From NCBI RefSeq assembly GCF_902813185.1, contig NZ_LR778301.1, forward strand, positions 124,001 to 188,000: DNA of 64,000 bases, read 5' to 3'. The translations under genes were made by a program, and so were the position numbers. Source of the stretch: Denitratisoma oestradiolicum. GTDB lineage: Bacteria > Pseudomonadota > Gammaproteobacteria > Burkholderiales > Rhodocyclaceae. A model generated the notes under the pieces. It was given only the letters and a program-made list of their open reading frames with translations, had not been told where the DNA came from and did not search any database. This document shows, one piece after another, positions 44,532 to 62,070 of the stretch (position 1 is the stretch's first letter; each line of letters starts with the position of its first letter).

Positions 44532-45672
44532 GCGCCTGCGCCATACGGGCCAGGGCGGTGTCCAAGGTATGGCGGGGACAACCGAAATTGAGCCGCACGA
44601 AGCCCGGTGCGCCAAAATCGGTGCCATCGGAAAGCCCTACCCCGGCTGCCTCAAAAAATTCCGCAGGCCGTTCCAGGCCCCGTTCCCGACAGTCGATCCA
44701 GGCCAGGTAGGTGGCTTCCACCGGAGTCATGCATAGACCAGGCATGCCTGCGACCGCGGCCTCGACCCGTTGCGCGTTGCCGCGCAGGTAGTCGAGCAGC
44801 GCCTGTCGCCAGGGGGCACCGTTGCGCAGGGCCGCCTCGCAAGCGACTAGACCCAGGGTATTGACATGGGGCATGATGCCTTGCATCGTGGCCTTGAACG
44901 CATGCCGCAGTTTTGCGCCGGGGATGATGGCGAAGGCGCAGCCCAGGCCAGGAATGTTGAAGGTCTTGGAGGGCGCCATCAGGGTGATGCTGCGCTCGGC
45001 TAGGGCGGGCGCCACGGTGACGAAGGGGTGATGGTCCAGGGTGGTGTCGAGGATCAGGTCGCAATGGATTTCGTCGGAACAGACGACCAGATCGTACCGT
45101 GTTGCCAGTTCGGCGATTCTCCCCAGTTCCTCGTCCCGCCAGACCCGCCCTGCCGGGTTGTGGGGGTGGCAGAGTAGCAGCAGCCGGACGCTACTGTCGC
45201 GCAGCATCATCTCCATTGCGTCGAAGTCCCAGTTCCAGCGGCTGCCTTCACGCACCAAGGGGACCTGTAAGGTGCGTCGCCCGGAGTGGGTGGGTGCGGT
45301 GAGGAAGGGTGGATAGATGGGGGCGGCGGTGCATACCGCGTCTCCCCCCCTGCCCACGGCCCGACAGGCCAGATTGAGCCCGGATACTAGTCCTGGCAGC
45401 CACACCAGCCAGTTTTCACGAATGGTCCAGCGGTAATTGCGTTCCAGGTATTCCAGCACCGCCTCGGTCAGGGAGGGCCAGGGCTGGCTGTAGCCCAGCA
45501 CACCATGATTAATCCGGTCATGGAGGGCCGACAAGACGGCTGGTGGTGCCGCAAAGTCCATGTCTGCCACCCAGAGGGGCAGTATATCCCGGTTGTCATA
45601 ACGGTTCCATTTGAGGGAGTCGCCGTGGCGTCGGTCGGGAGCGCTATCGAAATCGAAGGCTGGGGAATTCAA
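44521..45672 (-). CDS. PatB/MalY-type cystathionine beta-lyase
   Basis: A 383-residue PLP enzyme of fold type I. The PLP-lysine is in APSKTFNIPGL, with the phosphate-binding neighbourhood CHPHNPAGRVW and SDEIHCDLI. PatB/MalY proteins cleave C-S bonds of cystathionine or Cys conjugates. The start is TTG 45672, which overlaps the TGA of the caspase gene (TTGA), so it is translationally coupled as the last gene of the secreted-caspase operon. That is an odd partner, as all other products of the operon look exported while this one is cytoplasmic. Confidence 0.88.
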   Translation of the reverse strand: MNSPAFDFDSAPDRRHGDSLKWNRYDNRDILPLWVADMDFAAPPAVLSALHDRINHGVLGYSQPWPSLTEAVLEYLERNYRWTIRENWLVWLPGLVSGLNLACRAVGRGGDAVCTAAPIYPPFLTAPTHSGRRTLQVPLVREGSRWNWDFDAMEMMLRDSSVRLLLLCHPHNPAGRVWRDEELGRIAELATRYDLVVCSDEIHCDLILDTTLDHHPFVTVAPALAERSITLMAPSKTFNIPGLGCAFAIIPGAKLRHAFKATMQGIMPHVNTLGLVACEAALRNGAPWRQALLDYLRGNAQRVEAAVAGMPGLCMTPVEATYLAWIDCRERGLERPAEFFEAAGVGLSDGTDFGAPGFVRLNFGCPRHTLDTALARMAQALTA

Positions 45673-46766
45673 GGCGCAGGGGTTTCGAACAGGTATTCGC
45701 CACCGGCGGCATGGCCAGCCGTGACCACGGCTCCGTATTGGGGCTGCTGGGGATAATCCTTGGTCACGTCTTCATGGACCACTTGGTAGATGTCGTAGCC
45801 GGTGGTCAGACCTTTGGTTTTTTCCAGGGTCTTGATCAGGTTGTAGGCGAAGATGGAATGTCCCTCCTTGCCTTCGTCGGAGACCGGCTCCTCGTCCCCC
45901 GAGGAAAAGGCCAGTACCGAGCGCTGCTTGCGGATTTCCTCGGCATTGGCCTTGCCGGAGAATTTCGTCTTTTGCTCCTTGGTCAGGGAGCCGGAAAAAC
46001 AACTGTCGGAGATCAGGATCAACTGCTGGGCCGGAATGGCCTTCAGCAGCTTGGAAATGTCCGTGTTGGAGATCCAGTTGGCAGGGGACTTGACCGAGGC
46101 GTCGATGGGAATCCAGAAGCCCATCTTGGTGTCGTCCATCAGATAGCCGTGGCCCGCATAGAGCAGTAAAACGCTGTCTGCGGGGCTCACTTCGATGGCG
46201 ATGCGGTTGATGGCCTCGATGATCTGGGCCTTTCCGGCGTTGTGCAGTACTCGGGCGTCGAAGCCGAGGTGGGTGCGTAGTACCCGGGCCACTTCATTGA
46301 CGTCCGCCATCGGGGTCTCCAGGGCCGGGATGGGCGTTTTGTAATCGTTGTTGCCGATCAAGAGAGCCAGGCGTCGCGGTGGTTGGGGCGTCGAGGTGGG
46401 TAGCTCTGCTTTTGGAGCAGCGGCTGCCGGTGCGGGGATAGCTATCGGTAGTTTTTCAGCCGTTGACGGCGTTGTCACCAGCAGCGTGGCTGGTACTTCC
46501 TGGGGACGCTGAAGGCAAACCAAGCCGAGCGGGCGGGGGCCATCGGGGCATTCGGGCACGTCGGCCGCCTGGGGGTTCTTGCGCAGGGCCTCCAGGGCTT
46601 CCCGGTACAGGGCGGTGCGGGATTGATGCCGTTGGTTGAAGGTCGCCTGCATCTGGGCCACACCGGGAATGCCGCCGATGAAGGCGGGAGGCCGCATGGG
46701 CATCTGGGCGTTAACAGTGTGCGCTGCCGCTAGGGCACAAAGTAAAAGAAATCGCTTGATGTTCAT
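45669..46766 (-). CDS. Secreted caspase-like (C14) peptidase
   Basis: A 365-residue protein with signal peptide (MNIKRFLLLCALAAAHTVNA). I start at ATG 46766, overlapping the TGA of the previous gene (ATGA). A pre-domain (about 40-90, ALYREALEALRKNPQAADVP) precedes a variable linker and the caspase domain from about 130 (RLALLIGNNDY) with His206 (AGHGYL) and Cys256 (SDSCFSG). Both pre-domain and catalytic domain are clearly paralogous to the C-terminus of the TpsA-like exoprotein, and the His-to-Cys spacing (50) is identical. C14 proteases of this type usually cut after Arg or Lys; specificity here is not readable. Confidence 0.9.
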   Translation of the reverse strand: MNIKRFLLLCALAAAHTVNAQMPMRPPAFIGGIPGVAQMQATFNQRHQSRTALYREALEALRKNPQAADVPECPDGPRPLGLVCLQRPQEVPATLLVTTPSTAEKLPIAIPAPAAAAPKAELPTSTPQPPRRLALLIGNNDYKTPIPALETPMADVNEVARVLRTHLGFDARVLHNAGKAQIIEAINRIAIEVSPADSVLLLYAGHGYLMDDTKMGFWIPIDASVKSPANWISNTDISKLLKAIPAQQLILISDSCFSGSLTKEQKTKFSGKANAEEIRKQRSVLAFSSGDEEPVSDEGKEGHSIFAYNLIKTLEKTKGLTTGYDIYQVVHEDVTKDYPQQPQYGAVVTAGHAAGGEYLFETPAP

Positions 46767-47596
46767 TGGGATGCATCCTTCAACAGGTGAGCCCATTGCT
46801 GAGCCCAGCAACAGACATGGTCGAAGTTTGGCATGACGCGCAGCGTACCGCCATGGCGTTCAATGAAACTTTGGCTGACCGTTAGAGGTACCACCCGGTC
46901 TTCCCCTCCGGCCCAGTGAAATCCTGGAGGTAGAGTATCCATCGGCAATCGTCCAGGATCCATGGACTTTGTCATGGGTGAGATACCTTGGTGGTTGGTC
47001 CAGGCCTCCAGATCAAGGGGAGCGGCGACAGTGGTCCATCGTGCCACGTCGGTACGGTGAGCGGCAAGGAGTGCGGCCACGACGCCACCGCCGGAATATC
47101 CAGTGATATGTAGTTTCAATGCGCCCGTTTGCCGCTTCAGGGTATCCAAGATATGGTCATACTCTGCGATGACCTCGGGGGCAAATCGCCCTTCGTCCCG
47201 GTAGCTCGGATCGCAGTTGGCCAGGGCCTGGACTCCCAGATACTGACAGGGCCTGCCCAGATAAACCGTATTCGGTTCAGGATCCATCATGGCCATGTTC
47301 AGCACCGTAGCGCTTGTCGGCGTCGGATCCCGGGGTGGATGGTAGGGTGAGGGCCAGGGAGCACCATCTCCCTCAATGTAAATGGAAATCGTGGTAACCG
47401 GTTTGTCGCCAAGACGCCCCAGCACCAGCAGGGGAAATTGCCGTGGCGCAATTTCCTGAACCAGAAGGCCGCCCCCCTGGGCTAACGCCAGGGTTTTCTG
47501 CCGCAGGGCGGCGCTGCCCCCGCATCCCGTCAGTAAAAATAAAAAGGCCGCACAGGAAAGCGCGGCCTTGAGGTCTGCCAAGCAGAAACCGTACAT
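46763..47596 (-). CDS. Alpha/beta-hydrolase-like lipoprotein
   Basis: A 277-residue probable lipoprotein with lipobox LLTGC near residue 24. The serine hydrolase signs are GYSGGGV near 144 (nucleophile Ser), GGEDRVVP (acid) near 230 and a final FDHVCCW (His). ATG 47596 overlaps the stop of the beta-barrel gene (ATGA), and the stop overlaps the caspase start. The signal-peptide codons coincide with a terminator-like hairpin (47532-47569). I do not recognise a specific enzyme. Its operon position points to work at the envelope together with the barrel and caspase. Confidence 0.8.
   Translation of the reverse strand: MYGFCLADLKAALSCAAFLFLLTGCGGSAALRQKTLALAQGGGLLVQEIAPRQFPLLVLGRLGDKPVTTISIYIEGDGAPWPSPYHPPRDPTPTSATVLNMAMMDPEPNTVYLGRPCQYLGVQALANCDPSYRDEGRFAPEVIAEYDHILDTLKRQTGALKLHITGYSGGGVVAALLAAHRTDVARWTTVAAPLDLEAWTNHQGISPMTKSMDPGRLPMDTLPPGFHWAGGEDRVVPLTVSQSFIERHGGTLRVMPNFDHVCCWAQQWAHLLKDASQ
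47532..47569 (-). terminator. Terminator-like hairpin inside the lipoprotein signal-peptide codons
   Basis: On the minus strand AAGGCCGC, a 10-nt loop and GCGGCCTT are followed by TTTATTTTTA, the form of an intrinsic terminator. It lies just after the beta-barrel gene's stop but within the first 25 codons of the hydrolase gene. It could attenuate the distal operon genes (hydrolase, caspase, patB). Confidence 0.6.
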
Positions 47597-48603
47597 CAGA
47601 ACCGGAAGTTGATGCTGGCGGTCCAGGTTTCGTTGTCCATGTTGTTGCGGGACTCATTGCTATACGACAAGCCGCCGTAGATGGTATTGCTGGCGTTGAA
47701 GAAGTTGATGCCGACCTGACCGACCCAGCCATCCTTCTCAAACTTGGTGCCGGCGGCGGGTTTGGGCGACTGATCCTGGTCACTGACGTAGGTCAGGCCC
47801 ACGTAGGGCTGAACACCGTTACCCATCCAGTACGCACCTTGGATTCCGACGCGGATTTGGTCGAGCTTGTTGGTGACCCCAGAACCGGAGACGACGACAC
47901 CGGCGTTCTTCGAATTCTCGTATTTTTCCTCGGCGTAGAGGTAGCTGCCCTTGCCGACGATCTGCCAGTTACCAACCCACTGGGAGTAGCTCAGGTTGAG
48001 ACCGCCGAAGACGCGATCGGACTTTGCCGAGCCTACGCCCATCTTCAGCTCGCCTTCACCCCAGCCCAGGGAGGCGTCCAGGGCCAGGTTCTGGTTGATC
48101 TGCCAGCCCAGATAGGGGGCCACCGACATACCCTTATTGCTGAGCTTGGGACCAACACCCTTCAGCAGATTGCCGTCGGCGTCGTCATAGGAGCCGGTCA
48201 GGCCGAGCACCAGGTTGGGGGCCAGGGCGTAATCGAAACCGAGCACAGTGTTGTCGGCTTCCACTTTGGACTCCTGGCCAGTACGATCATCCTCCTGGGA
48301 AGAAGAACCAAAGCTGCCCCACGCACTGTACCCCTGCCCACCGCCGGCCGCCATACTGGTGCGCTGGATAGACGCGGTGGGGCGTGGACCACCGGTCATG
48401 GTCATGCGGGAGGTGACAGCATTGGAGATGGTCACCATGGTCTGGATGGTGGTGCCCTGGATCAGGGCATTGTTCAGACCGGGAGCTTCGGTGCCCGAGC
48501 CGCAGTAGCTGGTGCCCAGATAGCAGGTGGGGGTCGATGCGAAAGCGGAACTGCCCAGCATTGCCAAGGCTGCGGGGATTACTAAGTTGCGAATGGCTTT
48601 CAT
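47596..48603 (-). CDS. Outer-membrane autotransporter-type beta-barrel protein
   Basis: A 335-residue protein. The signal peptide ends AFA (about residue 23). A short Cys-containing segment (CYLGTSYCGSG) and a Thr/Ser-rich stretch are followed by about 230 residues of alternating amphipathic strands resembling the autotransporter barrel, ending in Phe (ASINFRF) as needed for BAM assembly. It has only a short passenger, so it may serve as a porin or anchor. It is the second gene of the minus-strand operon; the gap of 77 bp to the FecR-like gene shows nothing definite. Confidence 0.82.
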   Translation of the reverse strand: MKAIRNLVIPAALAMLGSSAFASTPTCYLGTSYCGSGTEAPGLNNALIQGTTIQTMVTISNAVTSRMTMTGGPRPTASIQRTSMAAGGGQGYSAWGSFGSSSQEDDRTGQESKVEADNTVLGFDYALAPNLVLGLTGSYDDADGNLLKGVGPKLSNKGMSVAPYLGWQINQNLALDASLGWGEGELKMGVGSAKSDRVFGGLNLSYSQWVGNWQIVGKGSYLYAEEKYENSKNAGVVVSGSGVTNKLDQIRVGIQGAYWMGNGVQPYVGLTYVSDQDQSPKPAAGTKFEKDGWVGQVGINFFNASNTIYGGLSYSNESRNNMDNETWTASINFRF

Positions 48604-48680
48604 CGGTGATTCTCCTATGGAAAGATGCCCCGCGTACGCGGGTGAAATAATCTAGCGCGGTAGGATTAAACCCCCCTTTC

Positions 48681-49370
48681 CTAATGTGGGGAAGAGGTTT
48701 GCCGGGCGTTGCGAACTGCGCGTTGGTAAAGTGCAACAAGCAGTTTTGCCTGGCTGTCATTGGGCCGGTTGGCGCGGAGATCTTCTATCGCCTGCTCTAC
48801 TCTATCCAGGGCGCGGACCTCGAACAGGCCGGCAAGCAGGTACATCTCAGGATTGAGGTCGGTCTGATCGGCTTCGGCACGAAGCTGCCGATAGGTATTG
48901 TCGATCTTGGCAAGGGCTTCCGGAGTGGCAATGGCCCGTAGTCGGGTCATACCCGCCCTACCTTGGCTATCCACGGAAGGCGTCTTGGCAATCTGTGCGA
49001 CGAGCACTGCCGGTAACTGGGTTACATGGGGTGTCCCAAGGTCGGAGGATTTGCTTTCTCCCGAGCCAATCTCAAGTTTCCCCTTCCCTGTCCAGCCTTC
49101 CTGTCGGCCGTTGGTCAAGTATACCAGCTTGATCTTGGCTCCCGTCTCCATAGCAATCAGGTCACCTTCCTTGAGTCTTGTGAATGCTTGTAGAGGTTGG
49201 AACCCGCTGTTGGACGCACGAGTGGCGGCGCCTTCGACAGCAGTGATCAGAGCGCCGCTTTCGGCCGCCAGCGCAATAGACGCTATTAGTCCACCCAAGA
49301 ACAGGCAGCAGCGTATAAGGATTTTGGGTAGTGATGTCATATGATTCGATCTATAAAGTTGATTATTCAT
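48681..49370 (-). CDS. Exported FecR-like domain protein
   Basis: About 229 residues. ATG 49370 has GGAGG 10 bases upstream; ATG 49340 is an alternative. The signal peptide ends ALAAES. A FecR-like beta-domain (about 45-110: ITAVEGAATRAS, LKEGDLIAMETGAKIKLVYLTNG) is followed by an alpha-helical C-terminus of TPR-like character (about 150-225). Unlike true FecR it has no sigma-factor partner nearby; such periplasmic FecR domains commonly occur with CHASE2 cyclases and secretion genes. It heads the barrel-hydrolase-caspase operon. Confidence 0.75.
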   Translation of the reverse strand: MNNQLYRSNHMTSLPKILIRCCLFLGGLIASIALAAESGALITAVEGAATRASNSGFQPLQAFTRLKEGDLIAMETGAKIKLVYLTNGRQEGWTGKGKLEIGSGESKSSDLGTPHVTQLPAVLVAQIAKTPSVDSQGRAGMTRLRAIATPEALAKIDNTYRQLRAEADQTDLNPEMYLLAGLFEVRALDRVEQAIEDLRANRPNDSQAKLLVALYQRAVRNARQTSSPH

Positions 49371-49587: not shown

Positions 49588-51147
49588 ATGTTCAGCAAGA
49601 AAGCGTTGTATGGCTTCCTCCTGGCGGCGCCGTTGCTGCCGGCCGGTGTGGCCCAGGGAGGTGATGTGGCGGCTGAGGCGGCCGCATCCGCAGCCCCTAA
49701 GACTCCGGCGATCAAAACAGTCACCAATTTTTCCCAGGCCCTACGTTGTATGGACGACCTTTTCATGGCCTTTGGCAAGCAGGGAATAGTCATTACGTCT
49801 GCTGGTATTCCCGATGAAACGGGCAAGGTTCGGACTGGAACCAAGGAAATGGTGATTACTGCCATCGCGAAGATGACGGTAAAAAGTAACGCTCTGGAGT
49901 TCATCGATTTCCATGCTGGAGGTGACGATCTTGCCAACCTCTTTGCGGCCAAGGGGGATGCAGCCCGGAAGCTTCCGGATTACTACATTCGAGGTTCCAT
50001 CACCCAGATGGACGATAACTCTGTTCGCAAAAACAAGGGCGCAGGCATTTCTCTCCCCTTCTTGGACTTCGGTTCATCAAAGGATGAGTCCTATGATCTT
50101 ATTAGTATGGACATGAGCGTGGGCGATGCGGCAACACGAAAAATCTTGCCTATCACCAGCACCTCAAACACCATGGTATTGGTGAAAGGTGGGTCGGCCA
50201 AGGAGGGAGGGGGGCGCCTTGGCAAACTGGGATTGAGTTTCAACGTTGATCTGAGCCGCTCGGAAGGTGTCGGTGCCGCAACGCGGACTCTTATAGAACT
50301 GGGTTTGATCGAAACAGTGGGGAAGTTTACTCAAGTACCCTACTGGAAATGCCTGGATACCAGCATTACCAATCCGCTGATTCGTGATCAGGCTCGGGAG
50401 TGGTATGACAGTGCTAAGGACAAGGATCGGGTGCTGTTCATTCAACGCAAGTTGGCAGGGATGAACCGCTATCGCGGTCCCCTGGATGGCAGCATCAACG
50501 ATGGGTTGCGCAACAGCGTAGCGGAATATCAGGCTTCGGCCGGATTAGTGGCTGATGGCGCCGTTAATTTCGACTTGTACGCCAGTCTGCTGGACGATAC
50601 CCAGAATGTGCTGGCAGCTCTGCCGGCACCGGCAGTTGTGCCTTATGTGCCCGGCGTCTCGGCGGCAGTCAAGGCGCCTCCGGCAGTGGCGGCGGCTGCA
50701 CAGTCGCAGATGACTGGGGCGTCCATGGCTCCCTTTAGGGTCAGCCTGGAGAGTGACCGGGGGGTTACGCCCTCCTATCGGGTAGGCGATTATCTGAACA
50801 TGGTTCTGTCCCTCAACAGTCATGGCACTGCCTATTGCTACTATGAGGACGCGACACGAAATACCGCCCGTATCTTCCCCAATCAATTCCATCCGGATTC
50901 TTCCTTGAAGGCCGGTGCGATTACGCGCCTACCCTCAGGGGGGTTCAAAATCAGGTTTGATCGGGCTGGGCGGGAAAGGGTGGCATGTATCGGTGCTGAC
51001 CGGGAACTCGTAGTGCCATCTTCTCTTCGAGGCGCGAGGGATCTCACTCCCCTGCCGGTCCGGTCCTTGGATGAGGTGGTCAGTCAGTTCAAACAGAGCA
51101 ATCCTGCTGCTGTTGCCAGTTTTGTCGACATCTCGGTTGCTCCCTGA
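49588..51147 (+). CDS. CsgG-like / peptidoglycan-binding / DUF4384 exported protein
   Basis: A 519-residue protein; ATG 49588 has AGAGG 7 bases upstream. After the signal peptide, residues about 35-265 resemble the CsgG/HfaB fold (YIRGSITQMDDN, a core strand pair, then a helix ending LGLIETVGKFTQVPYWKCL); no lipobox Cys is seen. A PG_binding_1-like domain follows (about 280-345, IQRKLAGMNRYRGPLDG), then a DUF4384-like domain (about 400-495, YRVGDYLNMVLSLNSHGTAY). It heads the plus-strand operon. A role in exporting or anchoring the small repeat proteins is inferred from CsgG's role in curli export. Confidence 0.72.
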   Translation: MFSKKALYGFLLAAPLLPAGVAQGGDVAAEAAASAAPKTPAIKTVTNFSQALRCMDDLFMAFGKQGIVITSAGIPDETGKVRTGTKEMVITAIAKMTVKSNALEFIDFHAGGDDLANLFAAKGDAARKLPDYYIRGSITQMDDNSVRKNKGAGISLPFLDFGSSKDESYDLISMDMSVGDAATRKILPITSTSNTMVLVKGGSAKEGGGRLGKLGLSFNVDLSRSEGVGAATRTLIELGLIETVGKFTQVPYWKCLDTSITNPLIRDQAREWYDSAKDKDRVLFIQRKLAGMNRYRGPLDGSINDGLRNSVAEYQASAGLVADGAVNFDLYASLLDDTQNVLAALPAPAVVPYVPGVSAAVKAPPAVAAAAQSQMTGASMAPFRVSLESDRGVTPSYRVGDYLNMVLSLNSHGTAYCYYEDATRNTARIFPNQFHPDSSLKAGAITRLPSGGFKIRFDRAGRERVACIGADRELVVPSSLRGARDLTPLPVRSLDEVVSQFKQSNPAAVASFVDISVAP

Positions 51148-51156
51148 GTATTGACC

Positions 51157-51717
51157 ATGGTCCGTTCCCTGTGGCTGGTTCTTGTGTTGGCTTCGGCAGG
51201 GGTGGCGTGGTCGGGCGAGATCATTCTGTTGCCCCAGAAGGCTGACGGGGTGGGTAGCGCGACCAGCGCAGGCGGGCAACGTGCCAGGGCAAAGGGTTAT
51301 CGAAAGGAGCAGCCTGAAGCGGGGAGCGAAGTCGTCTTGGTGCCAGAGGACTTGGTCGAAGAGGATGGGATGCTGTCTCCCCGGGGTGGAGTGGAGTCTT
51401 CCGCCACGGAAAATCGCTTGCGGGCGAAGGTCTTGCGACAATCAGATGAAGGACATCAGGCGCCCACCGTCATTCTTCCAGGGATCGCAGGGGATGGGGA
51501 CGTCGCCCAGGAAAGGGCAAGGAATAATCGACTAAAAGCCAGGGCGTACCGAGAGCACGGGCAGTCAGCCATGGATAGTGTTGGTTCTGATGGCATCCCT
51601 TTGGTGCTTTGCACAAACACGGAGAGTGTGGCTGGTCGGATTGGCGATGATGTTCAATCGGGGAGCCTGATCTACATTATTCGTGATGGAAAGTCAGTTA
51701 AGGCGCGTTGTCGCTAG
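51157..51717 (+). CDS. Small exported protein with novel RxRAKxYR repeats
   Basis: A 186-residue protein (from ATG 51157; TTG 51151 is also open) with signal peptide ending AWSGE. I recognise no family. It contains three degenerate repeats of about 40-45 residues, each with a hydrophobic VxLVP-type strand and a basic segment: QRARAKGYRKEQ, NRLRAKVLRQSDEG and NNRLKARAYREHGQ. The same two-part repeat recurs in the protein at 52086. The C-terminus has one Cys pair (VLCTNT and KARCR). It starts 9 bp after the CsgG-like gene. Confidence 0.7.
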   Translation: MVRSLWLVLVLASAGVAWSGEIILLPQKADGVGSATSAGGQRARAKGYRKEQPEAGSEVVLVPEDLVEEDGMLSPRGGVESSATENRLRAKVLRQSDEGHQAPTVILPGIAGDGDVAQERARNNRLKARAYREHGQSAMDSVGSDGIPLVLCTNTESVAGRIGDDVQSGSLIYIIRDGKSVKARCR

Positions 51718-51796: not shown

Positions 51797-52108
51797 ATGA
51801 AATTTGGTCTGGCAATTTCCCTGTTATTCGCTGCAGGTGCAGTGGGCGCCCAGGTATCTGTTGATGTTTCCAGTTATGGAGTGAAGGTTCTGACTGGAAA
51901 GGACGGTGCCTCGAATTCCGTGAGTGTGCAGTCCGGAGTCGTGGAGTCCGACGTCCAAATAGACGGTGTGGCAGTCATCAATGACGATGTGTTTGTCGAT
52001 GGTGAGAAGGTTCCAAGGGAGAAGGCTTCCTATACTTCTAAGAAGACAGGCAAGACCTACCTCATTAGACGGAGCAAGGGCGGTAATGTCAGTGTTTTTG
52101 AAAAATAA
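51797..52108 (+). CDS. Small exported beta-rich protein
   Basis: A 103-residue protein with signal peptide MKFGLAISLLFAAGAVGAQ. The mature part is rich in Val, Ser and Asp with alternating hydrophobic residues (VSVDVSSYGVKVLTG, VVESDVQIDGVAVINDDVFV), suggesting beta-strands, and ends in a basic tail. Not recognised. The frame is open further upstream but without a plausible start or signal. It overlaps the next gene by 23 bp. Base composition is more AT-rich than the flanking housekeeping genes. Confidence 0.65.
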   Translation: MKFGLAISLLFAAGAVGAQVSVDVSSYGVKVLTGKDGASNSVSVQSGVVESDVQIDGVAVINDDVFVDGEKVPREKASYTSKKTGKTYLIRRSKGGNVSVFEK

Positions 52109-53986: not shown

Positions 53987-54598
53987 ATGAAAACGCGTAC
54001 CCGTTTCCAGTTGTCGTTGCTTATGATGGCCCTGTTGGGAACAATAGGTGCTCAGCCAGCCTTTTCGGCCAATGACGATACAGTAAAACTCGAAGAACTG
54101 AAGCGTGCTATGACTACGCCGGGAAGTGAGAGTATTCCCGGCAAGAAGAAAGTTCGTACCCGGGCCATTGTGTTCGATAGTGAACCTCAGGTTGGTTCTG
54201 CACCCGAGGCCCCAGTGGCGCCACCGACAGATTGTTCGTCCCTCTCTCCGGATATAAAAGCGAATGCTGTGGATTTCGCCATTCAGTTCAAAGTGGGGAG
54301 TGCCGACCTGTCATCCACTTCTGAAGGGACGCTGATTGAAATTGGCAAGATTTTGTCTTTGTCTCCGGATCGTTGTGTTTTGGTCGAGGGCCATACCGAC
54401 TCTACCGGCAATGCTGACAAGAACATGGCGCTGTCCCGTGATCGTGCCGGCTCTGTCGTCAAATTTATTTCCGAGCGGGGCGGCGTGGAGCGTAAGCGCC
54501 TGATCCCCATCGGCAAGGGATCCTCTGATCCTATCAAGAACCTAGATCCGCGCGACCCCAAGAATCGACGCGTGGTGTTCAAGGTTGTCGTCGGCTGA
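53987..54598 (+). CDS. OmpA-family exported protein
   Basis: A 203-residue protein with signal peptide ending AFSA. The C-terminal half is an OmpA-like peptidoglycan-binding domain (about 95-200: IQFKVGSADLSSTSEG, VEGHTDSTGNADKNMALSRDRA, NRRVVFKVV). There is no barrel domain and no lipobox, so it is probably periplasmic or bound to the cell wall. Start ATG 53987 lies 7 bp after the previous gene. A short N-terminal linker carries SIPGKKKVRTRAIVF. It may anchor the secretion or surface complex to peptidoglycan. Confidence 0.85.
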   Translation: MKTRTRFQLSLLMMALLGTIGAQPAFSANDDTVKLEELKRAMTTPGSESIPGKKKVRTRAIVFDSEPQVGSAPEAPVAPPTDCSSLSPDIKANAVDFAIQFKVGSADLSSTSEGTLIEIGKILSLSPDRCVLVEGHTDSTGNADKNMALSRDRAGSVVKFISERGGVERKRLIPIGKGSSDPIKNLDPRDPKNRRVVFKVVVG

Positions 54599-54637: not shown

Positions 54638-54952
54638 ATGCGCGTTATCGCTATTCTCGTTGCATCTGCCGTTATTGCTGCCCCCGCTTTTGCTCAGCAG
54701 GCCCAGCGTTCCAGCAACCCGCAGGGCGTCCAGATTCAGGGCAACACCGAGATCAAGGCCAAGCAGGAAAACACCGCTGCTGTTGCCGTGGGTGAAGGCA
54801 ACGTTGCCAAGAACACGGCTGGCGCCATCAAGGGCGGCACCCAGATTCAGGGCAACACCAAAATCACGGCCAGCCAGAAGAATACCGCAGCTGTGGCTGT
54901 GGGCAAGAACAATACCGCTGCCAATGAAGCCGGCGTGATCGGTGGCAAGTAA
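54638..54952 (+). CDS. Small curlin-like repeat protein, copy A
   Basis: A 104-residue protein; AAGGAG lies 7 bases before ATG 54638. The signal peptide ends AFAQ. The mature protein is almost entirely two tandem repeats of about 36 residues: VQIQGNTEIKAKQENTAAVA... and TQIQGNTKITASQKNTAAVA..., each ending N-x-A-x-N-x-A-G-x-I. The regular Gln, Asn and Ala spacing recalls CsgA repeats, so an amyloid-like fold is plausible but unproven. It is nearly identical to the next gene. Confidence 0.8.
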   Translation: MRVIAILVASAVIAAPAFAQQAQRSSNPQGVQIQGNTEIKAKQENTAAVAVGEGNVAKNTAGAIKGGTQIQGNTKITASQKNTAAVAVGKNNTAANEAGVIGGK

Positions 54953-54985: not shown

Positions 54986-55321
54986 ATGAACCGTATTCTC
55001 GTTCTCGCACTCGTTTCCGCTTTTGCTTCCACTGCTTTTGGTCAGGCTTCCCAGGCTGGTCCCCGTGGTGCGATGTCTTCTCCCAATGCTCAGGGTGTCC
55101 AGATTCAAGGAAACACCGAAATCAAGGCCAAGCAGGAAAATACAGCTGCCGTTTCGGTTGGTGAAGGCAACGTTGCCAAGAACACGGCCGGCGCCATCAA
55201 GGGTGGTACCCAGATTCAGGGCAACACCAAGATCAAAGCCAGCCAGAAGAACACTGCGGCTGTGGCGGTTGGCAAGAACAATACCGCTGCCAACGAGGCT
55301 GGTCAGATCGGCGGCAAGTAA
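54986..55321 (+). CDS. Small curlin-like repeat protein, copy B
   Basis: A 111-residue paralogue of copy A; signal peptide ends AFGQ. It has the same two repeats with few changes (IKASQKNTAAVAVG for ITASQKNTAAVAVG) and a slightly longer linker (GPRGAMSSPNAQ). DNA identity is high over both repeats, pointing to a recent tandem duplication. AAGGAG lies about 8 bases before the ATG. It is the last gene before a strong terminator. Confidence 0.8.
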   Translation: MNRILVLALVSAFASTAFGQASQAGPRGAMSSPNAQGVQIQGNTEIKAKQENTAAVSVGEGNVAKNTAGAIKGGTQIQGNTKIKASQKNTAAVAVGKNNTAANEAGQIGGK

Positions 55322-55417: not shown

Positions 55418-55870
55418 ATGAAATTGATGTGCAATCTCTCGCTGGTTGTCGCTCTGCTGATTGTGTCGAACCTTGCACTGGCTGAACCCGATGTAGGATG
55501 GGTGGCTCAGATCAAGGTTGCCCGTGGAATAATCAACGTTGAGCGTACGGGGCAGCGTCACCCTGGTCTGGTCGGCATGCGCCTCAAACAGAATGACATC
55601 ATCACGACGGCTGGCAATGGATCGGCTGGGTTGATGTTTCTGGATAATTCCATGCTGTCCCTGGGGCCGGATGCGGAAGTGTCTCTGCAACGCTTTTCCT
55701 ATGATCCCGTAACCTACATGGGTGCCTTCGATGCTTTCGTCAAGCGCGGCACTGTGTCTGTTCAATCCGGTAACATCGCACGACAGTCCGCCGATGCGAT
55801 GCGGGTCACCACACCCAAGGCCGAGATCAAGGGAGATGCCCGGTCCTATCTGGTTAGTGTGGAGAAATGA
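55418..55870 (+). CDS. Exported FecR-domain protein
   Basis: A 150-residue protein (ATG 55418) with signal peptide ending LALAEP. The rest is a FecR-type beta domain: VARGIINVERTG, RLKQNDIITTAGNGSAGLMF, then a glycine/aspartate turn and VKRGTVSVQSG and MRVTTPKAEIKG. No sigma factor is nearby. It begins a second transcription unit after the terminator, with the OmpA lipoprotein gene following by 1 bp. Confidence 0.85.
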   Translation: MKLMCNLSLVVALLIVSNLALAEPDVGWVAQIKVARGIINVERTGQRHPGLVGMRLKQNDIITTAGNGSAGLMFLDNSMLSLGPDAEVSLQRFSYDPVTYMGAFDAFVKRGTVSVQSGNIARQSADAMRVTTPKAEIKGDARSYLVSVEK

Positions 55871-55871: not shown

Positions 55872-56453
55872 ATGAAATGGTCGTTGCTTGTTTTGACCGC
55901 ATGCGTATTGGCCGGGTGTGTACACCGTGAAACTGTCGCCCTGCTGCCGGGCGCGGACGGCAAGACGGGGAGCTTGAGTGTGAAAAGCAAGGAGGGTCTT
56001 GTCCGGCTCGACGAAGCCTACGCCGCCGCGGATGTCCGGGGGGAAAGTGTGCTGACGGTGCGCCTGACGCAAGCAGAGGTCTCGGAAAGATTCTCTGCCG
56101 CTCTGGATGCTCGTCCCCAGGAGCCCGTTCGCTTTCGGCTTTATTTCATAGAAGGCAGCGACCGACTGACATCCGAGTCGGAGCAGCAGATTCCCCGGGT
56201 TTTCAGTGAAATCAAAAATCGGTCGGCACCGGATGTTCAGGTGGTTGGACATACCGATCGGGTAGGTATCATTTTCGACAATGACCGACTTGCCTTGAAG
56301 CGGGCCGAGAAGATTCGAGGAGATCTGATTCAGCAAGGCCTCGATGCAGAGAATGTGGTCGCCAGCGGGCGGGGGGAGCGGGAACCCTTGGTGGTGACCG
56401 ACGATGAAGTTCCGGAGCCCCGCAATCGGCGGGTAGAACTTTACGTACGTTGA
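55872..56453 (+). CDS. OmpA-family lipoprotein
   Basis: A 193-residue protein with lipobox LAGC near residue 16, so lipid-anchored. The C-terminal OmpA-like domain (about 85-190) has FIEGSDRLTSESEQQ, VVGHTDRVGIIFDNDRLALKRA and NRRVELYV, which bind diaminopimelate in peptidoglycan. It starts 1 bp after the FecR-like gene and 27 bp before the WD40-caspase gene: a likely three-gene unit. The ATG at 55872 is used. Confidence 0.88.
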   Translation: MKWSLLVLTACVLAGCVHRETVALLPGADGKTGSLSVKSKEGLVRLDEAYAAADVRGESVLTVRLTQAEVSERFSAALDARPQEPVRFRLYFIEGSDRLTSESEQQIPRVFSEIKNRSAPDVQVVGHTDRVGIIFDNDRLALKRAEKIRGDLIQQGLDAENVVASGRGEREPLVVTDDEVPEPRNRRVELYVR

Positions 56454-56480
56454 ACGAAATCCTGGCATTCGGAGGTTCCC

Positions 56481-59400
56481 ATGTCCGGCATGAAGTCACG
56501 CAGCAGTTCTTCCTGGTGTATTTCTGCGGCCTGCCTGTTTCTGCTTGGCGGAGCCGTGGCAGCGCCCAAGCCGGCGCTACCTGCGCCAACCTCTGGTGAG
56601 CCCGTGCTGCGGATCGAGACCGGCGTCCATCTGGCGCTGATTACCAAAATTGGCACCGATGGTGCCGGCCGCTGGATCGTGACTGCCTCGGAAGACAAGA
56701 CTGCCCGCATCTGGAATGCGGTGACAGGCAAACCGGTGTCCGTGCTTCGCCCCCCCATTGGCGAGGAAAGTGCCGGTACGCTCTATGCGGCAGCCATTTC
56801 TCCGGATGGACGCCAGGTGGCACTCGGGGGCAATGGGAATTTTGATGGCCGCAATACCCATGCCTTGTATCTGTTCGATCGGGCATCTGGTGCGCTGCCA
56901 CCCAAGAGTACCCTGTCGGGCCTGGAAGCCCCCCTGACCCAGATTGCTTGGTCCAGGGACAGTCAGTTCATCGCTATCGGCCTGCGCCAGGAGGGGCTGC
57001 GCGTATTTCGCCGCAACCTGGGTTTTGTTGGCGCCGACCCGGAATATAACGAAGCCATCTATGGCGCCGACTTTTCCCGCGATGGACGCCTGATCACCGC
57101 CAGCCTCGATGGCGCCTTGCGCCTTTACATCATTGGCAAGGCCGGTCTGGAGCGCGTGGCTAGACGTCAGGCCCCAGGGGGGAAACCCTATTCTGTGGCT
57201 TTCTCGCCGGATGGAGCGCTGGTCGCCCTGGGCTATCAGGATGGACCGCGCGTCGATGTGCTCGACACCAATACCCTGGAACTTGCTTATACGGCCCAGG
57301 TCCGGGCGAATGGCAACCTGGGCCGCGTTGCCTGGTCCGATGATGGCCAGATTCTGTACGCGGGAGGGAGCGCCAACAGCGGTGGTCGTTTCCTGCTGTA
57401 CGCTTTCGCCGATGCCGGTCGTGGCCAGAGCCGGGAGATTGGCAGCTTTGCCAACACCATCACCGGACTGGCAACCCTGGGCGCCGGCGTTGTCGCGGCC
57501 AGCGCCGAACCTTCCTGGGCCGCCTTTGACGGCAGCGGTATTTCCCGAATTGGGGCGCGCCCCCAGTCCGCTGATTTCCGTGATGCCGGAGAAAATTTTC
57601 GTGTGGCCGATGACGGTCATGGGCTGGTCTTCCCCATGATGGTCAAGGGACCGTCCCTAGTGTTCGATCTCAGTCAGGGTAGCCTCAAACAGGCCACTCC
57701 CGGTCCGGAACTGAAGTCGCCGCGCTTGCCCAAGCGGGGTAGCGGCCCGGCAGACTGGAAGAATTCCCTGACGCCGAAACTCGATGGCCGCGCCCTTCCG
57801 CTTCGCCCCGGGGAAGTCTCCCGTAGTGCGGCCCTGGCGGGAGACAATCGTTTCGTCCTCGGTACAGACTGGAATTTGCGTCTCTTTGACGCCAATGGCC
57901 GTGCCCTCTGGGAGCGTCGCATTCCGGCCGCCGCCTGGGCCGTCAACATCACCGGGGACAGCCGCTGGGCAATCGCTGGTTTGGGGGATGGTACCGTGCG
58001 CTGGTATCGACTGGCCGATGGACTGGAACAACTGGCCCTGTTTGTCCATGCCGATCAGGAACGCTGGATCATCTGGTCTCCCAAAGGTTATTACGACACT
58101 TCGATTGGTGGCGAGAATCTGGTGGGCTGGCATCTGAATCGTGCCTTCAATCAGAGTGCCGACTTCTTTTCCGTGGGGCGTTTCCGTGAGCGCTTTTACC
58201 AACCTGGCACTATTCAGAAGATTCTGGCGCTGGCGGATGAGGATGACGCGGAGCGGCAAACCCGACAGGAACTGGCGGCTATCGCCGCGATGAATGCGGA
58301 ACCCGTGGCGCCAGTTCAACTCCAGGCGAAGGTCCCGCAGGAAGGCAAGGGACGCAAGTCGGCCTCAGTAGCCGGCCCGGCGTCCGCCGCTTCCGCAAGG
58401 CTGGTGGAAATCGTGCCGCCCATCATTGAGCTTCAGTCCGACAGTCAGGTGGAAGCTGTTGGTGATCTGGTCACCGTGCGCTATGCGGTGCGCACTCCCC
58501 AGGATGCTCCGGTCAAGGACATCAAGATTCGTGTCAATGGCCGTCTTGACCGCAGCATCAAACCGGTATCCCAGCGGGCCTTGCAGGGGGAGATACCAGT
58601 CCAGGAGGTACAGGTGCGAGTGCCTCCGGGCAAGGATGCCGAGATTCTGCTGATCGCCGAAAATCGCAATGCCAAGTCGGATCCGGTCAGTATCAAGGTG
58701 AGCCGTGGCGCCACCATGCCCAAGGCCGCAGCGGGCGACAAGGCCGACTTTGAGACCCTGTACATGCTGGTGGTTGCGGTCAACAAGTATCCGGGGGCGA
58801 ATGAGCTGGTCAGCCCGGTCAAGGATGCCAATGCCTTCAAGGCCCAAATGGCCCGCATTGCCAATCCTCCTGCCGGGGTGCGCAAGATCTACAACCGCAT
58901 TGAGTTCAAGATGCTCACCGACGACATGGCGACGCGGGAGAACATCCTCGAAGGCCTGAAGTGGCTCAAGACCAACATGAAGGAAAAGGATGCGGGCGTG
59001 CTTTTCCTGTCCGGCCATGGCATTGCCCAGGGTAAATCCTATTACTACATCCCCTTCAAGCCGGGCGGCATGGCAGGCAAGCCGGAGGAGTGGCTACCGG
59101 GCGACCAGATTGTTGGTACCCTGCAAAGCCTGCCCGGGCGCGCCATGTTCTTCCTCGATACCTGTTATGCCGGCGCCCTGACCAACCAGGCATCCAATGC
59201 CACAGACATCATCAACAAGATCGACGACGAGCGGGGCGTCATCGTGTTTGCATCGTCCACCGGTAAGGAAAAGTCTGGGGAGGACGACGAGAACGGTTTC
59301 TTCACCAAGGCCCTGATAGAGGGTTTGCGGGGCGAGGCTGTGGACAAGAAAGACAATCTGATCTATCCCACCTTACTCAAGCGCTATGTCACGCGCCGGG

Positions 59401-59483
59401 TCAAGGAGTTGTCCGACAATCAGCAGCGGCCCTTCATCAGCGATCATGGGATCGACGAACCGATCGCCATCGTTATAAAGTAA
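56481..59483 (+). CDS. Exported WD40-repeat/caspase fusion protein
   Basis: A 1000-residue protein. A signal peptide ends GAVAAP (about 28). A WD40-like beta-propeller (about 45-560; ASEDKTARIWNAVTG is a clear repeat) is followed by a linker and Ig-like region (about 650-755), then a C14 caspase-like domain (about 765-1000). His846 is in FLSGHGIA and Cys895 in FLDTCYAGA, so the dyad is intact. It is clearly different from the caspase at 45669. The propeller may sense or bind a target. A periplasmic or surface protease is inferred from the signal peptide. Confidence 0.9.
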   Translation: MSGMKSRSSSSWCISAACLFLLGGAVAAPKPALPAPTSGEPVLRIETGVHLALITKIGTDGAGRWIVTASEDKTARIWNAVTGKPVSVLRPPIGEESAGTLYAAAISPDGRQVALGGNGNFDGRNTHALYLFDRASGALPPKSTLSGLEAPLTQIAWSRDSQFIAIGLRQEGLRVFRRNLGFVGADPEYNEAIYGADFSRDGRLITASLDGALRLYIIGKAGLERVARRQAPGGKPYSVAFSPDGALVALGYQDGPRVDVLDTNTLELAYTAQVRANGNLGRVAWSDDGQILYAGGSANSGGRFLLYAFADAGRGQSREIGSFANTITGLATLGAGVVAASAEPSWAAFDGSGISRIGARPQSADFRDAGENFRVADDGHGLVFPMMVKGPSLVFDLSQGSLKQATPGPELKSPRLPKRGSGPADWKNSLTPKLDGRALPLRPGEVSRSAALAGDNRFVLGTDWNLRLFDANGRALWERRIPAAAWAVNITGDSRWAIAGLGDGTVRWYRLADGLEQLALFVHADQERWIIWSPKGYYDTSIGGENLVGWHLNRAFNQSADFFSVGRFRERFYQPGTIQKILALADEDDAERQTRQELAAIAAMNAEPVAPVQLQAKVPQEGKGRKSASVAGPASAASARLVEIVPPIIELQSDSQVEAVGDLVTVRYAVRTPQDAPVKDIKIRVNGRLDRSIKPVSQRALQGEIPVQEVQVRVPPGKDAEILLIAENRNAKSDPVSIKVSRGATMPKAAAGDKADFETLYMLVVAVNKYPGANELVSPVKDANAFKAQMARIANPPAGVRKIYNRIEFKMLTDDMATRENILEGLKWLKTNMKEKDAGVLFLSGHGIAQGKSYYYIPFKPGGMAGKPEEWLPGDQIVGTLQSLPGRAMFFLDTCYAGALTNQASNATDIINKIDDERGVIVFASSTGKEKSGEDDENGFFTKALIEGLRGEAVDKKDNLIYPTLLKRYVTRRVKELSDNQQRPFISDHGIDEPIAIVIK

Positions 59484-59507
59484 CTATTCATCAAAGGGAG
59501 ACTCCAC

Positions 59508-60182
59508 ATGAATGCCAAGCTCGTTCAACGCCCCATCGCTGCCGCAGTGGCCGCCGCCATATTGCTTTCTGCCTGTGCCACCAATCCGGATGGTTCCATC
59601 AAGATGGACGATCGGGCCAAGGGCGCCCTGATCGGGGCCGCCGCCGGCTGCGCCCTGGCCAGCGCCGCCGGCAGCGACTGCGTCAAGGGCGCCGTGGTGG
59701 GGGCCGCGGTGGGTTTCCTGGTGGGCTGGTATTTCGAGTCCAAGAAAGTGGCCGACGCCAAGCAGGTCAATGCCGAGTATCAAAAAAAGAAAGTGGCGAT
59801 TCCCAAGAAGGAAATCACGCCGGTTGCCTTTTCCAGCAATGTCCAGCGGGCCGAACCAAACGCCCAGGGCGAACAGGAGGTGCAGATCACTTCCAGCACT
59901 GATTTGATCGGCTATGGCGACAAGGTTCCGGAAGTCAGTCAGAAGTATGCGATCTACGACGAGAACAACAAACTGGTGGAGGAAAAGACCGAGAAGCTGA
60001 CGGCCGTGGATGGCGCCGGCCGCTACCAGACCACGTCCAAGTTCAAGAAACCCGCCAATGCCAAGGGCAAGAACTACACGGTGAAGACCACTTTGCTGGC
60101 CAACAACAAGACCTACAAGGAAAACAGTTACAAGGTTTCCTTCGAGGACAGCGGTCGCATCATCGTGGCTCTGGCTAACTGA
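59508..60182 (+). CDS. Glycine-zipper lipoprotein
   Basis: A 224-residue protein with lipobox LLSAC near residue 23. A glycine-zipper segment (KGALIGAAAGCALASAAG and VVGAAVGFLVGWYF, about 38-75) could pack into the outer membrane. The rest (about 85-220) is a beta-rich domain with many Lys. GGGAG lies about 8 bases upstream, 24 bp after the caspase gene. It converges with the cyclase gene, overlapping by 8 bp. Not assigned to a named family. Confidence 0.8.
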   Translation: MNAKLVQRPIAAAVAAAILLSACATNPDGSIKMDDRAKGALIGAAAGCALASAAGSDCVKGAVVGAAVGFLVGWYFESKKVADAKQVNAEYQKKKVAIPKKEITPVAFSSNVQRAEPNAQGEQEVQITSSTDLIGYGDKVPEVSQKYAIYDENNKLVEEKTEKLTAVDGAGRYQTTSKFKKPANAKGKNYTVKTTLLANNKTYKENSYKVSFEDSGRIIVALAN

Positions 60183-62070
60183 TACCCAGGATCTCGCAGG
60201 CCGCCACCAACTGGGCGCGGCCCTTCACCTTCAGCGCATGGTGGGCGCCGGTCACCACGACCGGCCCCGCCGCATCGACCGTCGCCTGGCTGGCCAGGAT
60301 AGGCGCTCCCACTTCCTTGGTCATGCCTTCCAGCCGGGAGGCGGTATTCACCGTGTCGCCAATGGCCGTGTACTCCATGCGGCTGCTGGCGCCGATATTG
60401 CCCACCACCGCGTCGCCGGTATGAATGCCAATGCCGATGTCGAACTGGGATAGGCCCCGGCCGGCAAAGCGCACCTCCATCCAGGTGCGGAACTCCACCG
60501 CCACCTTACGTAGCGCCACGGCTGCCCGCAGGGCGCGGGCCGCATGGTCGTCCTGGCGCAGGGGGGCTCCGAATTCCGCCATGATGGCGTCACCGATGAA
60601 CTTGTCGATGGTGGCGCCTTCTTTCAGCAGCACGGTGCAGGCCTGTTCCAGATAGGTGTTCAGCATCTCCACCACTTCCTTTGGGGTCAATTTCTCGGAA
60701 AGGGTGGTGAAGTTGCGGATGTCGGAGAACAGCACCGTCACCCGCATGGCCTGCCCGCCCAGTTCCGGGAGTTCGGGTGATGCCAGCAGCGCCGTCATCA
60801 CCTGGGGTGATACGTAGCGGCCAAATAGGGCATTCAGATGGGAGCGCTCCCGCTCCTCACGGGTCAGACGCAACAGAAACAGGGTGCCGACCACCATGCC
60901 CAGGCCTAGATGCAGGTGGGCCAAGGGAAACAACACCATCCGGCCATGGAGCAGATAGGCGATGAAGGTGAAGCCCAGAGCCAGGGCCATGGCGAGCAGC
61001 AGGGTCCAGCTCATTGGCAGACGCATGCCCAGGAAGGCCAGGATGCCGAAGGCGGCGGCAAAGGTGGCCAGTCGCAGCCAGTTCGACAGGGGATCGACAA
61101 AACTTCCCGAGAGCAGGCTTTCAATGATGGAAGCCTGAATTTCCGGCCCGGACATCAGGGCATTGGCGCGGCCCAGGGTAGTGGAGTAGGGGGTCGGGTG
61201 TACGTCGTTCATGCCAGCGTAGCCGGCGCCGATGACTACCGCCTTGCCGGCCAGGGCACGCACTGCCGGGTCCCGTTCCGCGTTGGGGGCCAGCAGCCGC
61301 TGAAAGGACAGGGCGGCGATGCTTCCCGGCGGGCCGGCGAAGACGATGGGCCAGGCGTCCTGGGCGGCTACCGTGCGATTGCCAAAGCGCCAATGAGCGG
61401 CGGTCGGGTCCTGGCCCGTGTGGCGTATCGCGGCCAGCATGCCCAGGGTCAGATGGGGCATGCCCTCCAGGGTGCGCCGAGTTCCGTTGGCGGCGAAGCG
61501 GCGTACCACCCCGTCGGCATCTGCCTCCAGATTGGCCAGGCCCACATGGGGAACCAGCGCGAAGTCGGGCAGGGCCAGCAGATAGTCGGGGCTGGGCAAA
61601 ATGTAATCCCCTTCCTTGTCCCCATCGCCGATACGAAAAGCCGCCAGCAGCACGTTGCCCCGATTGATCTGTTGGCGGAAGGGCTGGTCGTAGCTGCGGG
61701 TCGCTTCCTCGGGGGCAAGCTTCAGCTTTTCCAGCCAGCGTTCCGGGCTGCCGCTGAAGAGAAAGTCCAGGGCCACGGTCTTGGCACCCACGGCGTCGAG
61801 TACTCCCAGGGCGCGGGCGAAGTGGGGTGTCCAGAAAGCCAGGGGCTCATCGGGCTGGGAAGACAAAGTTGGATCATCGATCATCACCAGAGCCACATGA
61901 GAGGCTTCGTGATGTTTGCCGGCTAGGCGATGCCAGAGGTCGCTGTAGAGGGATTCGGCGCGATCGGCGAATCCGCTGCGGTAGAGGGATTCGGCAACCC
62001 CGACGCTGAGGAACGTGGCGCAAAGGGCCAGCAACCAAGCCTTGGTGGTTAACCGACGCATGGTGGTCAT
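60175..62070 (-). CDS. CHASE2-domain adenylate cyclase
   Basis: A 631-residue inner-membrane sensor. ATG 62070 is used; the open frame upstream runs through a repeat. TM1 near 10-30 is followed by a periplasmic CHASE2 domain (about 35-300, VALVMIDDPTLS), three TM helices (about 325-400) and a class III cyclase domain (about 440-625). Metal Asp residues are in FSDIRNFT and GDAIMAEFG; Lys in IDKFIGD and Asp in AIGDTVNTASRLE indicate ATP specificity. It may signal envelope conditions through cAMP. CHASE2 cyclases often travel with FecR-domain genes. Confidence 0.9.
   Translation of the reverse strand: MTTMRRLTTKAWLLALCATFLSVGVAESLYRSGFADRAESLYSDLWHRLAGKHHEASHVALVMIDDPTLSSQPDEPLAFWTPHFARALGVLDAVGAKTVALDFLFSGSPERWLEKLKLAPEEATRSYDQPFRQQINRGNVLLAAFRIGDGDKEGDYILPSPDYLLALPDFALVPHVGLANLEADADGVVRRFAANGTRRTLEGMPHLTLGMLAAIRHTGQDPTAAHWRFGNRTVAAQDAWPIVFAGPPGSIAALSFQRLLAPNAERDPAVRALAGKAVVIGAGYAGMNDVHPTPYSTTLGRANALMSGPEIQASIIESLLSGSFVDPLSNWLRLATFAAAFGILAFLGMRLPMSWTLLLAMALALGFTFIAYLLHGRMVLFPLAHLHLGLGMVVGTLFLLRLTREERERSHLNALFGRYVSPQVMTALLASPELPELGGQAMRVTVLFSDIRNFTTLSEKLTPKEVVEMLNTYLEQACTVLLKEGATIDKFIGDAIMAEFGAPLRQDDHAARALRAAVALRKVAVEFRTWMEVRFAGRGLSQFDIGIGIHTGDAVVGNIGASSRMEYTAIGDTVNTASRLEGMTKEVGAPILASQATVDAAGPVVVTGAHHALKVKGRAQLVAACEILGIS

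Follow-up and report, generated by a model that had tools for sequence, protein, structure and literature searches.

A conserved CsgG-type cassette and its family of small repeat proteins in Denitratisoma oestradiolicum: a candidate surface-assembly system

We analyzed a 64,000-nucleotide window of the Denitratisoma oestradiolicum genome (4.29 Mb), comprising bases 124001–188000 of the 4,168,563-base contig NZ_LR778301.1; all positions below are window coordinates. Between 45669 and 62070 lies a gene set whose core is a real, conserved CsgG-type cassette with its own repeat proteins, and surface assembly is the best reading of it. The locus probably encodes machinery of CsgG type (type VIII-like) for export across the outer membrane and assembly at the surface, with substrates unrelated to curlin in sequence; the caspases and the cyclase encoded alongside may have roles in this assembly. 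An earlier sequence-only reading had proposed an undescribed envelope system here, and our search of open-licence papers found no description of this gene set.

Core genes and their conservation

The core genes, under short names coined in the present analysis, are as follows.

49588..51147, plus strand: CsgGl, a CsgG-like domain (approximately residues 43–258) with PG_binding_1 and DUF4384; signal peptide, no lipobox (Pfam, NCBIfam, AlphaFold 2 (AF2) model, structure search)
51157..51717, plus strand: Rep188, exported, with three short R/A/K-rich motifs (e.g. RLKARAYR) and a conserved C-terminal part (locus comparison)
51797..52108, plus strand: Sm141, small, exported; N-terminal part with one IQG-like motif in some relatives (locus comparison)
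52086..52466, plus strand: Sm166, small, exported (locus comparison)
52486..53391, plus strand: exported protein with HExxH and NExxAY, gluzincin-like by motif, without a Pfam family
53388..53687, plus strand: IQG1, repeat protein with a two-Cys C-terminal end; ATGA overlap with the preceding gene (sequence, locus comparison)
53674..53979, plus strand: Sm117, small, exported; two Cys in the mature part and an INVCK-like end (relatives including alphaproteobacteria)
53987..54598, plus strand: OmpA1, exported OmpA-domain protein (PF00691, 63 bits)
54638..54952, plus strand: IQG2, two 37-residue repeats and an RSSNPQG element after the signal peptide (sequence, model)
54986..55321, plus strand: IQG3, near-duplicate of IQG2 (87% identity over a 240-nt stretch; sequence comparison)

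A CsgGl match at E 1e-5 was found in 18 of the 121 genomes of its family. Thirteen close family loci, namely the window's own and 12 at 45–89% CsgGl identity, carry the HExxH protein, Sm141, IQG1, Sm117 and OmpA1 in one order. Nine form a single block, although no IQG2/3 is seen in the block of L032. In the other four (L037–L040) the genes IQG1–Sm117–OmpA1–IQG run divergently from the CsgGl part, and the search found neither Rep188 nor Sm166. A wider contig scan gave 53 named loci, which together with the window and the 12 family loci make 66, or 56 after removal of 10 near-identical ones. By title, approximately three-fifths of the 53 belong to Betaproteobacteria (Rhodocyclaceae, Accumulibacter, Azonexus, Giesbergeria and others) and the remainder mostly to Alphaproteobacteria; among the named strains that carry the core are Giesbergeria anulus, Rhodocyclus purpureus and Propionivibrio dicarboxylicus.

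Genes within 11 kb of CsgGl were counted in 36 unique close loci (CsgGl above 690 bits, L078 left out; L079 is labelled Terasakiella). Core genes were frequent: HExxH protein 33, IQG 32, Sm117 32, OmpA 32, Sm141 32, Rep188 24 and Sm166 16. IQG, Sm117 and OmpA are missing from two loci whose contigs end within 1.6 kb of CsgGl (L055, L072) and from L069 and L070, whose CsgGl genes are close paralogs. That of L070 stands among unrelated genes on a contig that also bears a full cassette approximately 22 kb away, and L069 comes from the same metagenome-assembled genome (MAG) as the cassette locus L056. Sixteen more distant loci hold caspase (9), OmpA (8), Sm117 (7), IQG (5), CHASE2 (5) and HExxH (0), and four still more distant ones, three of them by title Rhodobacteraceae or their genera, hold OmpA (4) and caspase (3). 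Across the phylum, a CsgGl relative at E 1e-10 was found in 20 of 398 genomes, the scoring being limited to three candidates in each.

The HExxH protein announced by the sequence-only reading proved well conserved: HExxH is kept in 41 of 42 relatives, the exception (L055) being cut by a contig end, and NExxAY likewise in 41 of 42. The latter presumably supplies the downstream Glu ligand of a gluzincin metallopeptidase. No Pfam family matched the 52486–53391 protein, which by motif is gluzincin-like, with predicted peptidase activity. Taken together, CsgGl, the HExxH protein, the IQG proteins, Sm117, OmpA1 and Sm141 form a conserved unit, joined at some loci by Rep188 and Sm166. The neighbourhood comparison that the earlier reading had proposed as its check showed gene content and order recurring more than by chance.

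As separate observations, distant CsgGl paralogs in L045 (6012–6705) and L046 are flanked by weak IQG-like matches, and a second DUF4384 protein (L085, 15199–16344, plus strand) lies near CsgGl at Rhodopila loci.

A predicted CsgG fold in CsgGl

In the CsgGl frame 49528–51147, Pfam matched both domains that had been assigned to it besides the CsgG-like part, DUF4384 (43.6 bits) and PG_binding_1 (28.6 bits). The CsgG relation itself was weak by sequence: the Pfam CsgG family (PF03783) scored 12.6 bits, below its cut-off of 20.8 (E 0.08), and a profile search of PDB returned CsgG at E 0.5, with profile positions 152–198 aligned. HfaB was the best NCBIfam match (E 2.4e-4, residues 30–98). By predicted fold the relation is clear. 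With the AF2 model, which is of modest confidence and has low-confidence hairpins, ranks 1–25 in Foldseek and ranks 1–8 in the VIA structure search were all CsgG. The model aligns with hairpin-bearing CsgG structures over 193–202 residues, and CsgG stands clearly above other folds. Residues 213–222 are conserved and strongly amphipathic, and residues 146–180 are not strongly so. Lipobox-like ends occur in the relatives L037–L040.

The IQG repeat proteins

IQG2 and IQG3 each contain two repeats of 37 residues, which carry a motif resembling AxAVGxGNxAxNxxGxI. A regular expression for this motif, written from the same 20 IQG sequences in which it was counted, matched 40 times in these sequences and never in 200 shuffles. 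The repeats are predicted to be all-beta: the model shows eight strands, four per 37 residues, with pLDDT 82–90 over the repeats and pTM 0.49. No solved fold matched it significantly; the two top Foldseek rows, non-significant, were FapC fibrils. The sequence-only reading had called the repeats curlin-like and Asn/Gln-rich. Repeat proteins with a predicted all-beta structure are indeed present, and the family is rich in Ala, Gly, Asn, Lys and Thr (17/16/12/9/9%), with Gln at 9%.

Taken strictly, the curlin likeness found no support, and the counts of published sequence patterns were mixed. Pfam gave no curlin match in the repeat proteins, and a PDB sequence search with IQG returned neither CsgA nor FapC up to E 5. 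Of the curlin patterns given in excerpts of PMC10192328, only QX10Q was enriched in the 20 IQG sequences (22 matches; mean 10 and maximum 16 in 200 shuffles), NX5QXG occurring 0 times (shuffle mean 2.3) and its degenerate form once (mean 6.5). The minimal Fap repeat, X15GX4NX3GX6NX7 in an excerpt of PMC3792158, occurred in 0 of the 20 sequences (shuffle mean 0.4).

A short element, [RM]SSx[PA]xG, follows soon after the signal-like N-terminus of one IQG-family frame in 36 loci (not de-duplicated), and is kept even where the remainder of the frame diverges (L037, L076–L079). Within the family, the IQG profile matched 14 of 121 genomes, namely the 13 with a close CsgGl and G087, where the match is partial and lies within a 274-residue frame; four genomes having only a distant CsgGl gave no match. 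Of 8000 candidates scored in the protein database, 671 matched. Among the 120 matches listed, none had a Pfam domain, and the named proteins were hypothetical proteins except for one LpoB and one unreadable label.

The repeat also occurs elsewhere. The IQG expression also matches Sm141 in certain relatives (L032, L074), and a single IQG repeat closes four FecR-domain proteins (by Pfam) encoded far from the cassette, one of them in this genome (L102) and the rest in three other genomes (L103–L105):

L102, 4363–5244, minus strand: FecR protein with C-terminal IQG repeat
L103, 4823–5695, minus strand: FecR protein with C-terminal IQG repeat
L104, 4946–5740, minus strand: FecR protein with C-terminal IQG repeat
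L105, 4650–5444, minus strand: FecR protein with C-terminal IQG repeat

Further IQG-family frames stand away from the cassette at L106–L111, in genomes G105, G003, G079 and G008.

Add-on genes and their linkage to CsgGl

The remaining genes of the locus are the following.

55418..55870, plus strand: FecR2, exported FecR-domain protein (PF04773, hhalign)
55872..56453, plus strand: OmpA2, OmpA-domain lipoprotein (Pfam)
56481..59483, plus strand: WD40-propeller protein with a C-terminal caspase domain (WD40-caspase; Pfam)
59508..60182, plus strand: GlyZip, glycine-zipper lipoprotein (Pfam)
48681..49340, minus strand: FecR1, exported protein travelling with the caspase module; candidate FecR member (locus comparison)
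47596..48603, minus strand: AutoT, autotransporter-type outer-membrane beta-barrel (PF03797, 45 bits)
46763..47596, minus strand: ABhyd, alpha/beta-hydrolase-like lipoprotein with a GYSGG elbow (sub-threshold Pfam matches)
45669..46766, minus strand: Casp1, exported caspase-domain protein (PF00656, 103 bits)
60175..62070, minus strand: CHASE2 sensor with a class III nucleotidyl cyclase domain (Pfam)

From 49588 the plus strand thus reads CsgGl, Rep188, Sm141, Sm166, HExxH protein, IQG1, Sm117, OmpA1, IQG2, IQG3, FecR2, OmpA2, WD40-caspase and GlyZip; downward from 49340 the minus strand reads FecR1, AutoT, ABhyd and Casp1, and the CHASE2-cyclase occupies the far end of the locus. The genes lie where the sequence-only reading had placed them and number nineteen rather than about 15, ABhyd and AutoT being two parts that it had left unnamed. 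Its statement that nearly all products carry signal peptides or lipoboxes agrees with our count of 18 of 18 proteins at 45669–60182, made by eye and with a hydrophobicity heuristic (not SignalP) that is weak, assigning the neighbouring PAS-GGDEF-EAL protein an only slightly lower score. OmpA domains, which that reading had listed as anchors, were present in OmpA1 and OmpA2. G+C content is 0.50 at 52–54 kb, against approximately 0.65 over the first 20 kb of the window.

Both caspases called by the earlier reading were recovered with PF00656 (Casp1 103 bits, WD40-caspase 64 bits), and their dyads appear intact, with His-Gly and Asp-[Ser/Thr]-Cys motifs in each. Among Casp1 relatives, counted over loci that were not de-duplicated and that include the window's own, both motifs are kept in 12 of 12 frames above 360 bits; of 38 frames above 200 bits, 37 match the His pattern and 26 the Cys pattern. 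In WD40-caspases the Cys pattern matched 5 of 10, the others reading DAC or DTCH, and by eye His and Cys are kept in all 10.

The CHASE2 and cyclase domains were likewise both above cut-off in the frame 60175–62115 (PF05226, 106 bits; PF00211, 80 bits). Of the two proteins assigned a FecR domain, FecR2 holds up (PF04773 at 22.7 bits against a cut-off of 24, or 25.2 bits when the match runs past the gene's stop; hhalign probability 97.5 to other FecR proteins), whereas FecR1 showed no Pfam FecR match up to E 10 and an hhalign probability of 10.8 (E 0.003).

In the 36 close loci the add-on genes were counted as caspase 16, FecR1 11, CHASE2 10, AutoT 10, ABhyd 9, FecR2 8 and GlyZip 7. Linkage to CsgGl was assessed in the 13 close genomes (17 searched), treating related genomes as independent, which makes the P values too small. 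A caspase lies within 10 kb in 10 of 13 (expected 0.51, Poisson-binomial P 4e-13) and within 5 kb in 5 of 13 (expected 0.28), in a search that missed the window's own WD40-caspase. CHASE2 lies within 15 kb in 6 (expected 0.28, P 1e-7) and within 10 kb in 4 (expected 0.19). For FecR, as matched by Pfam, the count within 10 kb is 4 (expected 0.29, P 1e-4). Linkage of caspases, CHASE2 and FecR to CsgGl beyond a simple chance model is therefore supported. Intact add-on modules change side and strand relative to the core between loci, which together with their recurrence in more distant loci argues against mere inheritance.

A window protein at 21447–25946 (plus strand) combines an N-terminal two-partner secretion (TPS) domain with a C-terminal caspase and is followed by a ShlB/FhaC-type transporter (25959–28046, plus strand). 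Its caspase-bearing end is 43% identical to Casp1 over 329 columns, and in L034 a TPS protein with a C-terminal caspase ends approximately 170 bases before CsgGl. Casp1-type caspases on TPS protein C-termini fit a surface role and support, without proving, action outside the cell.

In five alphaproteobacterial loci, a CRP-type regulator stands between the CHASE2-cyclase and CsgGl, which fits the idea of a sensor. Four of the loci are unique (L085, L087, L089 and L101), and the fifth, L088, nearly duplicates L087. The unique loci are three from Rhodopila and one from a Rhodospirillales MAG; cyclic-nucleotide-binding (cNMP-binding) and Crp helix-turn-helix domains were matched by Pfam in L085 only, and the regulators of the other loci by phmmer.

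Several neighbours were recorded besides. A caspase fused to an FGE-sulfatase domain neighbours the CHASE2-cyclase/CsgGl region in L085. A MalY-like aminotransferase gene (44521–45672, minus strand) overlaps Casp1 by 4 bases and has relatives near the cassette in L029, L031, L033, L056, L074 and L096. The PAS-GGDEF-EAL protein (42198–44531, plus strand) lies two genes from Casp1, with relatives near the cassette in L033 and L039; a cyclic di-GMP link of the system through it is possible.

Proposed mechanism and alternative explanations

In the mechanism that we propose, the small proteins would enter the periplasm by Sec, and CsgGl would form an oligomeric outer-membrane channel tied to peptidoglycan through OmpA1 and through the PG-binding domain of CsgGl itself. 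IQG2 and IQG3 would leave through CsgGl, perhaps recognised through the RSSxPxG element after the IQG2 signal peptide, much as CsgG recognises the N-terminal segment of CsgA; we judge such export of the IQG proteins by CsgGl more likely than not. On the surface they would stack into a beta-solenoid coat or fibre, for which we put the chances a little short of even. IQG1, Sm141 and Sm117 may nucleate, cap or chaperone, the HExxH protein may process a component, and the movable modules (FecR1–AutoT–ABhyd–Casp1, FecR2–OmpA2–WD40-caspase–GlyZip and the CHASE2 cyclase) may trim, remodel or report on the assembly. Remodelling by proteases is a tentative proposal, and so is control by the cyclase, against which it counts that no CRP-like site was found upstream of the present operon. 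Speculatively, the locus could represent a new class of Gram-negative surface fibre built of two-layer beta-solenoid subunits with 37-residue repeats, with a peptidoglycan-anchored CsgG-type channel, trimming or shedding by surface caspases, and a CHASE2 cyclase switch acting via cyclic AMP.

CsgGl might instead be a periplasmic or outer-membrane-associated ring scaffold, tied to peptidoglycan and sharing the wider fold of PelC, FlgT and LptE, with the repeat proteins as a periplasmic structural layer; the standing of CsgG clearly above other folds, the alignment with hairpin-bearing structures and the conserved amphipathic segment at 213–222 make this unlikely. A somewhat stronger case can be made that the system is the CsgGl-to-IQG3 block only, and that the caspase, FecR2–OmpA2–WD40-caspase and CHASE2 genes ride along as passengers, collecting at a hot spot for envelope genes. 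Several observations favor this and weigh against a joint system: add-ons are missing from many core loci, they stand on either side and strand of the core, caspase domains number from 2 to 21 in each of the 13 host genomes, and kinship of the genomes deflates the linkage P values. We still regard the passenger explanation as rather improbable, given that all three linkages exceed chance, that more distant loci repeatedly have a caspase, OmpA or CHASE2 gene nearby, and that FecR and IQG are fused in one protein.

The surface-assembly reading also has to be weighed against a defence or programmed-cell-death island in which a cyclase signal triggers the caspases. Casp1 and the WD40-caspase are matched by PADLOC caspase models at 36 and 23 bits, respectively, and the cyclase by a Pycsar cyclase model at 98 bits; these look like whole-domain-family matches, the other parts have signal-like N-termini or are of outer-membrane types, and caspase domains of this type also occur on TPS proteins, so that we consider such an island very improbable. 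A diverged curli or Fap system that kept its architecture and lost recognizable subunit motifs seems only slightly less remote. In its favor stand the CsgG-type channel, the QX10Q enrichment, the two non-significant FapC fibril rows at the top of the Foldseek results, the closeness of the 37-residue repeat to the 38–39 residues of Fap, and the likeness of AVGxGN in IQG to aaG*gN in the FapC consensus (both Fap features as excerpted from PMC12392863). Against it, the NX5QXG, degenerate and minimal Fap patterns lie at or under their shuffle means, PDB returned no CsgA or FapC sequence match, and Curlin_rpt, CsgE and CsgF are without a match in the 13 genomes.

Curli provides the main known case of CsgG-type export, and Hfa is a related system. 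If the surface-assembly reading is true, the cassette would add to CsgG-type export a further lineage, with substrates of its own, that occurs in both Beta- and Alphaproteobacteria. Its carriers include genomes of Accumulibacter and Azonexus, organisms of wastewater flocs, where matrix proteins matter. To our knowledge, the bacterial roles of caspase-domain proteins are largely unknown, and the system would tie such proteins to a concrete, testable surface machine. Should a caspase-trimmed, cyclase-switched fibre exist, bacterial caspases would gain a defined extracellular job in matrix biology.

Comparison with known systems

With curli the cassette shares a channel protein of predicted CsgG fold and small exported repeat proteins encoded alongside. 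Like the curli genes, which form two divergent operons according to an excerpt of PMC3521004, it is sometimes arranged in two divergent operons. It differs in that CsgGl bears PG_binding_1 and DUF4384, and in its further genes: the HExxH protein and OmpA, accompanied at many loci by caspases or a cyclase. Curlin_rpt (PF07012), CsgE and CsgF were each found in 0 of the 13 host genomes at E 0.001, with E. coli as a positive control. HfaB, the CsgG relative of Caulobacter that anchors the holdfast, is the top NCBIfam match of CsgGl, but at only 20.4 bits against a cut-off of 300.

Fap export runs through the FapF barrel, in whose place the cassette has a CsgG-type protein, and the minimal Fap pattern is absent from IQG; among 20 window proteins scanned, none matched a C39 peptidase. 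The 37-residue IQG repeats do resemble those of FapC subunits, which in excerpts of PMC12392863 are approximately 38 residues long with conserved Asn/Gln and form one layer each.

FecR2 recalls the FecR/LapA retention module through its FecR domain and a sub-threshold retention-module match, as do the four FecR proteins with an IQG repeat elsewhere. FecR is otherwise an anti-sigma regulator with a membrane segment, whereas FecR2 is a stand-alone exported protein. Finally, Casp1 resembles the TPS-caspase exoproteins, as its identity with the window's TPS protein indicates, and differs from them in having its own signal peptide and no TPS domain.

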